The notes under the pieces: model-generated
The model's input: only the letters and a program-made list of their open reading frames with translations
What the model was told of the DNA's origin: nothing
Databases searched by the model: none
Shown: piece by piece, positions 17,497 to 24,855 of the stretch
Layout of the letters: every line of letters starts with the position of its first letter
How positions within the stretch are numbered: position 1 is the stretch's first letter
Program-made: the position numbers and the translations under genes
NCBI GenBank assembly: GCA_014239655.1
Contig: JAAZYM010000078.1
Coordinates: 1-64,000 of the forward strand
DNA: 64,000 bases
Direction of reading: 5' to 3'
Source: Flavobacteriales bacterium
GTDB taxonomy: Bacteria > Bacteroidota > Bacteroidia > Flavobacteriales > BACL11

Positions 17497-19254
17497 ATGA
17501 AAAAATTTATAAAAAATGTGCTCTCAACATTAATAGGGATTATACTGTCTTTTGCTGTTATTGTGATTGTATTAATTGGGATCCTGTCAATCGCATCATC
17601 ACAAATGAATAATAATGAAAAACCCATTAAGGAAAACTCAATATTAAAAATTGATCTATCAAGTGAAGTAGTAGAAAGATCATCATCAAATCCCCTCTCA
17701 AATATCGACTTCACAAATCCTGAACCAAAAAAACAAATTGGACTTAAAAAAATATTAGATAATATAGAAAAAGCTAAGAGTGATAAGAATATCATTGCAA
17801 TATACATTTATAGTCCATTTGTCAATGCAGGTTTATCTAAGACTGAGGAAATTCGAAATAAACTACTTGAGTTTAAAAAATCAGGTAAACCAATTATTTC
17901 TTACAATGAAATATACTCAACTAAAGGTTATTATCTTTCTTCAGTAGCAGACAAAATTTATTTAAATCCAATGGGAATAATTGACCATAAAGGAGCTGCT
18001 GCAACAATTATGTTTTTTAAAGGTCTACTAGAAAAACTCAATATTGATATTCAAATTTTCAAAGTTGGTAAATTTAAAAGTGCAGTAGAGCCTTTTATAT
18101 TGGATAAGATGAGTTCAGAAAATAGAATACAATTAAAATTAATGTTAAATAGCTTGAATGACAATATAATGGATAGCATTGCAAGTCAGCGAAATTTATC
18201 GCTGGAAAAAGTACAGAGAGATGCTGATCAATTAACATTAACCTCAGCACAAATATGTCTAGAAGAAGGTTATATTGATGGATTAATATATGAAGATCAA
18301 ATTGAAGATACGCTAAAAGCAATGTCAGAAGAAAATAAACTAAACCTTATTTCACTAAAAAATTACTCATCTATCAAAACTAAGAAGAAAGATATAAGCA
18401 GAAATAAAATTGCTATTGTATATGCTAATGGTGAAATTAATTCTGGAGAAGGAGATCTCTCTAATATCGGATCAAAAACAACCTCAGCTGCTATCAAAAA
18501 AGCTAGAGAAGATAAGAATGTTAAAGCAATTGTTTTAAGAGTAAATTCTCCTGGGGGAAGTGCTCTTGCTTCAGATGTGATTTGGAGAGAAACAACTCTT
18601 GCAAAGAAAGTAAAGCCACTTGTTGTTTCTATGGGAGATTATGCTGCTTCTGGTGGTTATTATATTTCTTGTGCTGCAGACACAATTGTTGCGAACCCTA
18701 CTACTTTAACAGGTTCTATTGGAGTCTTTGGTATGATTCCTAATATGAAAGATTTTTATGAATCAAATTTTGGAATTACTATTGATACTGTCAAGACAAA
18801 CAAATACTCTGACATGGGAATAAATAGAAGACTAACAACTTATGAGAAAAATTCGATTCAAAAAGGTGTTGAAGATATCTACACTGATTTTATTACAAAA
18901 GTTGGAAAAGGAAGAAATATGTCAAATGATGCTGTAGATGAAATTGGTCAAGGAAGAATATGGTCTGGCTATGATGCTAAGGAAATAGGTCTTGTTGATG
19001 TATATGGGGGACTTGAAAAAGCAATATCTATTGCTGTAGAACTAGCTGAAATAGAAAACTACCGCGTTATATCCTTACCAAAGGAAGAAGACCCTCTAAC
19101 AAAAATAATTAATGATTTAAAACAAACCAAGCTCTCTAATTTATTAAATGATGAATTTGATTTTATTAATACACAGCATATAAAAACTATAAAAAACTTA
19201 ATAAAATCAGATAATATCCAAACTCGTATTCCTTACTTAATTGAATTAGAATAA
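17497..19254 (+). CDS. sppA: Signal peptide peptidase SppA (67K type)
   Basis: VLRVNSPGGSALASDVIWRE; MGDYAASGGYYISCAAD; GSIGVFG. Confidence 0.93.
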   Translation: MKKFIKNVLSTLIGIILSFAVIVIVLIGILSIASSQMNNNEKPIKENSILKIDLSSEVVERSSSNPLSNIDFTNPEPKKQIGLKKILDNIEKAKSDKNIIAIYIYSPFVNAGLSKTEEIRNKLLEFKKSGKPIISYNEIYSTKGYYLSSVADKIYLNPMGIIDHKGAAATIMFFKGLLEKLNIDIQIFKVGKFKSAVEPFILDKMSSENRIQLKLMLNSLNDNIMDSIASQRNLSLEKVQRDADQLTLTSAQICLEEGYIDGLIYEDQIEDTLKAMSEENKLNLISLKNYSSIKTKKKDISRNKIAIVYANGEINSGEGDLSNIGSKTTSAAIKKAREDKNVKAIVLRVNSPGGSALASDVIWRETTLAKKVKPLVVSMGDYAASGGYYISCAADTIVANPTTLTGSIGVFGMIPNMKDFYESNFGITIDTVKTNKYSDMGINRRLTTYEKNSIQKGVEDIYTDFITKVGKGRNMSNDAVDEIGQGRIWSGYDAKEIGLVDVYGGLEKAISIAVELAEIENYRVISLPKEEDPLTKIINDLKQTKLSNLLNDEFDFINTQHIKTIKNLIKSDNIQTRIPYLIELE

Positions 19255-20067
19255 TGATCCTTGAGATATTTCTTCTTCAAAAGAAATGTCAGCTATAAAA
19301 CCCTCATGCGCTCTTACATTAAAAACTTGATTATTATCAAGTAGAAGATATTGCCCTTTTATACCTTTTAAAATTCCTTCGACACAATCATTCTTCTCAA
19401 GCTTCAGGCTTTTAACTTTAGTAGGATATTATGAGACTGGATATTTAATCTCAGTAACCGTATTATCCTCTAGGATATATTTTTTAAAATCATCAGGAAC
19501 ATAATTAGAAAGCTCGGATTTAATCTTCACTAGATCAATATACTTAGGCTCTCCAGATAACATTTTCCTCCAATTTGTCTTGTCAGAAACATGCTTTTTA
19601 ATAGAAACCTCAATATCACCAGAAAATCTTCTATTTGGAACTTCGGCTAGAATTATTGCTTGACTAGCGCCTTGATCCATCCACCTAATTACTCCCTGAC
19701 TAGACCTAGTAATCCCTACTTTAATTCCACTTGAATTTGCTAAATAGACATAATGTGGTGCTAACTGAAATTCCTTTTCCCATTCTAAATCTCTTTCTTC
19801 AATATCTAGATGAGCAGTACAAAGTTCGGGTTTAAAAATACTTTGAGATGCAAGTGGAGAATTCCAGAAACAATTATAACAAAAACCTGATCTATAAAAC
19901 TTACTCATTATTTTGTTACATTGACAAATCACTTTTCCTCTCCAATTAATCTTAATTCTTTTACCAATCAGATTATTTAAAAAGTAATCTTGCTTATTAA
20001 TATTCAAAGAATAATGAACGGCATCATTTAATGATGTATTCATCTTTTTAATTATATTAGAATGCAT
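19246..20067 (-). CDS. DUF2797-family protein interrupted by in-frame TAA (19429-19431); ORF track shows only 19429..20130
   Basis: Cys-rich CQCN...CYNCFW region plus GIKVGITR; same frame resumes after TAA as YPTKVKSLKLEKNDCVEGILKGIKGQYLLLDNNQVFNVRAHEGFIADISFEEEISQGSLF*. Start likely MHSNIIKKMN at 20067. Confidence 0.75.
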
Positions 20068-20074
20068 ATTTTTG
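20067..20074 (+). promoter_or_regulatory. TAnnTTTG-type element (TATTTTTG) for GH3-family gene
   Basis: Consensus match 29 nt upstream of TTG start. Confidence 0.35.
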
Positions 20075-22308: not shown

Positions 22309-24855
22309 TTATTTCTTTCCTTTAAAATTAATCACCATCTCATTAACTAAGATCTCTCCTTTAAGATAAGTAACCTCATCTTTTCTAAGATCATAATATA
22401 TTTCTACTTCTCTGTCTTTCCCAACAATATTTAACATACCACCAATCTTATAAGGATAGAGATCTTTATCAGAATTCGTAAATGTAGAGCTCATTGCTGT
22501 AAATACAATAGGTTCTTTACAATTTGAAATAAACTGCTCACACTTTGCTCCACCAGAATTACATGTTAAATCATTACTTAATGTAATAGTTTGTAGCCTA
22601 TTCTCACTATATCCAAAATCATCAGCTATCGTCAATATTACAACGTTTTCACTGTCAACTACTTTGTACGCTTCTTCTATAGTCTGAATATTGTTATTTT
22701 CAATCTGAGTACTTGATACATTAGTCAATGATGGAGCAATTACTAATGCAACCACAGACATTAACTTTAAAAGAATATTTAGCGAAGGGCCTGATGTGTC
22801 TTTAAATGGATCTCCTACAGTGTCACCAACAACTGCAGCTTTGTGAGCCTCCGTTCCTTTTCTTCCCTGCTCTTCAATCATCTTTTTTGCATTATCCCAA
22901 GCTCCTCCAGCATTTGACTGAAATATAGCCATCAAGACTCCAGTTGTAGTAACTCCAGCTAATAATCCACCAAGCATTTCAGCTCCTCCAATATATCCTA
23001 CTAATACAGGAACTAAAATTGCTAATAAACCAGGAGCAACCATTTCTTTAATAGATGCCTTTGTTGAAATATCAACACACTTATCATATTCTGCAACACC
23101 ATTAGCTGCATCAAATATTTTCCTATCTGATTCTGATGCTTTTGACATATCTGAATCATATTTTCTCATAACCTCTAAGGCTGCTTTAAGAGCAGGAATA
23201 TCTCTAAACTGTCTTCTAACTTCCTCAATCATCGCCATTGCAGCTCTTCCTACAGCATTCATTGATAGAGCAGAAAACACAAATGGTAACATACCACCAA
23301 CTAATAATCCTGCCATAATTTTAGGTTGAGACACATCAATAGATTCAATACCTGCAGTCTTCATAAATGCAGCAAATAATGCTAGAGCCGTTAAAGCAGC
23401 AGATGCAATTGCAAATCCCTTCCCAATTGCAGCAGTTGTGTTACCTACTGCATCTAATTTATCTGTTCTTTCTCTTACTTCAGAAGGAAGCTCAGCCATC
23501 TCAGCTATTCCTCCAGCATTATCAGAAATAGGACCATATGCATCAACAGCTAATTGAATCCCTGTATTGGCTAACATTCCTACAGCAGCAATAGCAATAC
23601 CATATAATCCTGCAAAATGATTTGAAACAATAATAGCAGAAGCAATTAAAATAATTGGCATTGCTGTAGACATCATTCCAACACCTAAACCAGCAATAAT
23701 TGTTGTAGCTGAACCAGTTTCTGATTGCTCAACAATTGAATTGACAGGTTTAGTACCAGTACCTGTATAATATTCTGTTGCTTTTCCAACCATTAAACCA
23801 GCAACTAAACCAGCAATTGTTGCCCAAAATACACCCATTGATGTATATTCCATTCCATTACTTACCCATGTTTCAGGAAGCATGGTATCTATAATGAAAT
23901 AAGACGCAACTAACATTAGTGCTGCAGAACCAAATTCCCCTAAATTAAGTGCTTTATGTGGAGAACCACCATCCTTAACTTTAACAAGGAATGTTCCTAG
24001 AATTGACATTACAATACCAACAGCAGCTAAAACTAATGGTAAATAAACAGCTCCTAAACCATCAAAATTAGCTCCAAATTCAGGTAATGTAGCATATACA
24101 GCACCTAAAACCATTGTAGCTATTATTGACCCTACATATGATTCAAAAAGATCTGCTCCCATTCCAGCAACATCTCCTACATTGTCTCCTACATTATCAG
24201 CAATTGTTGCTGGATTTAAAGGATGGTCCTCAGGTATACCTGCTTCCACCTTTCCAACAAGATCTGCACCAACATCAGCAGCTTTTGTATATATTCCTCC
24301 TCCAACACGTGCAAAAAGAGCAATTGATGATGCTCCTAATGAAAAACCAGAAAGAACATTTAATACCATATCAAGATTATCACCCCACATACCTTGATAT
24401 ATAAAAAGTAAAGAACTTAAACCAAGAACTCCAAGACCAACTACGCCTAACCCCATCACTGCACCACCAGAAAAAGCTACTTCAAGCGCTTTACCTAATG
24501 ATGTTCTAGCTGCTTGAGTTGTTCTAACATTAGCCTTTGTAGCTACTTTCATTCCAATAAATCCTGCTAATGCAGAACATATTGCTCCTACTATAAAAGA
24601 AACTGCAACTAAACCATGAGATGTTTCTTCATTTGATCCTTTAAAAAATAGTAAAATTGCTACTGCAACTACAAATACAGACAATACTTTGTATTCTGCC
24701 TTTAAAAACGACATTGCTCCATCAGCAATATTCTTAGCAATTTTAGACATTTTTTCGTCACCTTCATCTTGTTTAGAGACCCATGCATTTTTCCAAAATA
24801 CAAATCCTAATGCTAAGACTCCAAAAAGTGGTAAATATGATACAATAATTTCCAT
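22309..24855 (-). CDS. hppA: Membrane-bound ion-translocating pyrophosphatase with C-terminal extension of about 138 aa
   Basis: [90 protein letters not shown] then non-canonical tail. Confidence 0.95.

Follow-up and report, generated by a model that had tools for sequence, protein, structure and literature searches.

An in-frame TAA interrupts an otherwise intact gene of the DUF2797 family (PF10977) in the 64,000-nucleotide stretch of DNA analysed here (the window). Is this stop a mutation carried by the organism, a codon that is read through, or an error of the draft assembly?

The gene lies on the minus strand. When the stop is read through, the ancestral frame covers 19246..20070, i.e. 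274 residues followed by a TAA stop at 19248-19246, and it was analysed as the 274 codons from 20070 to 19249. Candidate start codons are an in-frame ATG (20067) and a GTG (20130). The interrupting TAA occupies 19431-19429 and is followed by T, so the frame reads ...TVTEIKYPVS-stop-YPTKVKSLKLEKNDCVEGILKGIKGQYLLLDNNQVFNVRAHEGFIADISFEEEISQGSLF-stop, with the next stop being the one at 19248-19246. The 60 codons between the two stops (19249..19428, minus strand) form the C-terminal tail. We found no lesion in the gene besides the TAA, and within the window it is the sole gene interrupted by such a stop.

Membership of PF10977 was assigned to sequences scoring above the gathering score of 25 bits across most of the Pfam model. 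The read-through protein belongs to the family by this measure, with 281.8 bits over model positions 1-225 of 227, while the portion up to the TAA obtains 213.9 bits and covers positions 1-180 only. Because reading through the stop extends the match from 1-180 to 1-225, the tail is real family sequence, far beyond chance. The gene thus resembles other family members in spanning almost all of the profile and in keeping the conserved C-terminal GIKGQYL...VFNVR stretch, and differs from them in being interrupted by one TAA about 60 codons from its end. A preliminary description of the window had claimed that the TAA splits an otherwise intact DUF2797 gene, which the frame and the Pfam match confirm, and that the 60 codons past it are the normal C-terminus of the family, which agrees with the extent of the read-through match and with the homologue alignment below.

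The convergent neighbour on the plus strand is sppA (17497..19254), a signal peptide peptidase according to its Pfam match (Peptidase_S49). Its 3' end overlaps the read-through end of the DUF2797 gene by 9 bp (19246-19254) when both stop codons are counted; the overlap had been described before, with a length of 8 nt that has to be corrected. In most relatives the two ends overlap by exactly 9 bp, and in a few by 4 bp. This conservation of the 9-bp overlap identifies 19246 as the ancestral end of the DUF2797 gene, as had been proposed. Elsewhere in the window, the membrane pyrophosphatase gene hppA (22309-24855) encodes a C-terminal extension of about 90 residues past the pyrophosphatase family match; relatives of this extension, about 40-47% identical, occur in congeners, and no clear match was found in the stretches of the relative G015.

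A DUF2797 match is present in 55 of the 60 genomes searched as relatives, and homologues of the same length as the read-through frame are found among them. About 100 homologues, six congeners included, could be aligned across the TAA site, and all have a sense codon there: Glu, Gln or Lys within the genus, and a more variable residue elsewhere. No stop was found at this position in any relative, so the conservation expected of a programmed read-through is not seen. Both comparisons proposed in the preliminary description point the same way, as no aligned homologue ends at YPVS and the TAA is absent from the sister genomes. An internal stop listed for the match in G029, the case that was checked, is no more than the place where a shorter protein normally ends; similar stops listed for other relatives also belong to matches that end at about residue 266. 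In the nearest congener, G001, the gene spans two contig ends (G001:C75:3975-4522 and G001:C192:8957-9337) that overlap within the gene, where that assembly breaks.

The tail is still under constraint. An alignment of 26 intact homologues has 45 invariant columns, nine of them in the tail. Compared with G001, which is 87% identical over the stretch that it covers, the tail has a dN of 0.066 and a dS of 1.09. On the branch leading to the window, with changes polarised by five other congeners, the tail has gained 5 nonsynonymous against 10 synonymous changes, and the body next to it 5 against 8. Relaxed selection past the stop is therefore not seen, although a very young pseudogene would look identical. 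It follows that the stop is recent, erroneous or read through. We roughly estimate that, had it arisen earlier than the last fifth or so of the branch, the tail would hold more nonsynonymous changes. The AlphaFold2 model of an intact congener protein has a mean pLDDT of 89.7, and the tail is predicted confidently as a mostly beta-stranded C-terminal part, so loss of these 60 residues should damage the protein. A fold search of the PDB with this model found no significantly similar structure, and therefore no function is claimed.

Further evidence comes from other genes of the same assembly. The window belongs to a draft genome (G000) of 1.46 Mb in 78 contigs, 88.5% complete. Using one genome per species, we compared 678 kb of it, less than half of its length, with 1.33 Mb from G015, a near-complete relative. 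Among the 321 genes compared, seven carry a genuine internal stop: those for DUF2797, hemW, a prolyl oligopeptidase, rpoN, a NifS-like desulfurase, a DPP IV-like peptidase and an MFS transporter. A codon-usage screen of 290 kb of the draft genome flagged in-frame stops in nrdB, in mreB and in the same prolyl oligopeptidase gene. With nrdB and mreB the interrupted conserved genes number nine, that is, at least eight besides DUF2797, and each has one TAA or TAG. The sites are L165:3362 (nrdB, on G000:C46), L162:2858 (mreB, on G000:C43), L183:11822 (NifS-like desulfurase), L190:14481 (hemW), L168:4063 (rpoN), L166:5829 (prolyl oligopeptidase), L184:11493 (DPP IV-like peptidase) and L176:11122 (MFS transporter). 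Family profiles support the names of these genes. A tenth candidate, on L164, is a partial gene at a contig end and rests on one alignment only.

These counts depend partly on judgement, by which genuine internal stops were told from antisense shadow ORFs. Many internal stops of the first pass were such shadows and were dropped. In the second pass two stops on L182, three on L181 and one on L172 were left uncounted, as they lie in poorly aligned ends or a short ORF, and a codon-usage candidate on L155 proved to be two adjacent genes rather than a split one.

The reciprocal test, which covered 317 genes, found no broken gene; one apparent internal TGA in G015 (L215) precedes the probable start of a leucyl aminopeptidase gene (Peptidase_M17). 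We searched the sampled part of the draft genome for frameshifts and found none, and none of the stops checked is common to any relative. The stops sit anywhere along the genes, not merely close to their ends. The interrupted mreB is the only MreB-type copy in the draft genome, as much as 97% identical to its congeners, and is intact in the relatives. The interrupted nrdB is the only small-subunit match found in this genome, and the adjoining large subunit scores below the class II (NrdJ) cut-off. As a separate observation, nrdB is unmatched in several near-complete relatives of the family, e.g. G014, G015 and G017, and the type of ribonucleotide reductase seems to vary within the family.

The residues replaced differ between the genes. 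At the TAG of nrdB the relatives have Glu, which, from what is known of R2 proteins, is probably an iron ligand. At the TAA of mreB and of hemW they have Ser, at that of the NifS-like gene Ser and in one case Cys, and the prolyl oligopeptidase of G015 has Glu at the TAA site. Where the ancestral codon is reasonably clear, i.e. in DUF2797, nrdB, mreB, the NifS-like gene, hemW and the prolyl oligopeptidase gene, the stop is accounted for by a G-to-T or C-to-A substitution; in some of these cases the nearest relatives have a codon with another third base as well, which makes more than one difference between the sequences. For the DPP IV-like peptidase, rpoN and the MFS transporter the class of change is ambiguous. 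At the codon usage of the draft genome G-to-T and C-to-A changes account for about 26% of the possible nonsense paths. The pattern, seen in a small sample whose clear cases were picked by the residues of the relatives, would fit damaged (oxidised) or thinly covered DNA, but mutation biased towards AT would also favour such changes. An excess of G-to-T or C-to-A, the signature of oxidation, is not specifically seen among missense changes, which counts against errors of this kind, although at the error rate that the stops imply none would be visible there. A mutator state through loss of mutY was considered and rejected, as mutY is present and uninterrupted.

We infer from the assembled sequence that the TAA in the DUF2797 gene is a base-substitution error of the draft assembly, with a probability of roughly three in four. 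It would be one of about ten in-frame TAA or TAG codons in otherwise intact conserved genes in the sampled part of the genome, and the living organism would most likely encode the full-length protein ending at 19246. An error is favoured because single stops are scattered over the assembly, frameshifts are absent, core genes are affected and none of the stops is common to the relatives: lesions of one kind are found repeatedly in unrelated conserved genes of this assembly and are missing from the relatives. A comparable situation is known from Mycobacterium smegmatis, where otherwise intact conserved genes are interrupted in the deposited genome, and 28 of the 73 interrupted genes investigated turned out on resequencing to be sequencing errors (PMC1852416). 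In contrast to those cases, the present genome shows substitutions to stops only, without frameshifts.

A genuine and very recent nonsense mutation, leaving a young pseudogene whose product lacks 60 residues and is probably inactive, is unlikely, though it is the main alternative. A single substitution from a congener codon is enough to produce the TAA, and a tail still under constraint is what a young lesion predicts. The gene may also be dispensable, since 5 of the 60 relatives lack a match, two of them with genomes 97-99% complete. However, such a mutation would have to coincide with equally young ones in mreB, nrdB, hemW, rpoN and others, without a single frameshift; the absence of frameshifts makes the set unlike ordinary gene decay.

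Functional read-through or recoding of the TAA, whether through a suppressor tRNA, codon reassignment or leaky termination, would also yield the full-length protein. The low dN/dS past the stop and the many interrupted conserved genes in the draft genome are both in line with it, as is a survey which argues that in-frame stops followed by constrained sequence are widespread in prokaryotes and that many are read through (PMC7918605). The present case resembles those of the survey in the low dN/dS past the stop, but here the stop occurs in no relative and the affected residue varies between genes. As TAA stands at Ser in mreB and hemW and at Glu in the prolyl oligopeptidase gene, no single reassigned codon or suppressor tRNA would restore all of them, and the replaced residues do not point to one amino acid as reassignment or suppression would require. 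None of the 25 tRNAs found in this 88.5% complete genome has a stop-reading anticodon. In the 290 kb of the codon-usage screen TAA and TAG terminate most long ORFs. Moreover, the TAA of the DUF2797 gene stands before a T, a context argued to terminate most strongly in bacteria (PMC5289835). We therefore regard read-through as very improbable. The same low credence applies to the wider idea that the TAA and TAG codons of this lineage are real and read through at useful levels with a site-dependent residue, by which mreB, nrdB and DUF2797 would be expressed.

It is extremely improbable that the gene normally consists of the truncated ORF of 233 codons, with a tail that is non-coding or belongs to a gene of its own. 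The only point in favour is the 233-aa ORF, ending at 19429, in the output of an ORF finder. Against it, the tail contains invariant family residues and lacks any in-frame ATG, GTG or TTG, so that it cannot be an independent gene with a standard start; nor does any homologue end or split at the TAA site.

The preliminary description had left nonsense mutation, read-through and sequencing error open. Of these, error in the assembly is now favoured by the stops in at least eight other genes, the lack of frameshifts and the residues that exclude a single recoding rule. As a finding on DUF2797 the interruption matters little. Its value is as a warning: in this assembly such stops affect 7 of the 321 conserved genes compared, about 2%, and truncated genes or odd single residues taken from it should be checked against the reads before any biological meaning is given to them. 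Were the stops genuine, they would mark a remarkable lineage that tolerates stops in core genes.
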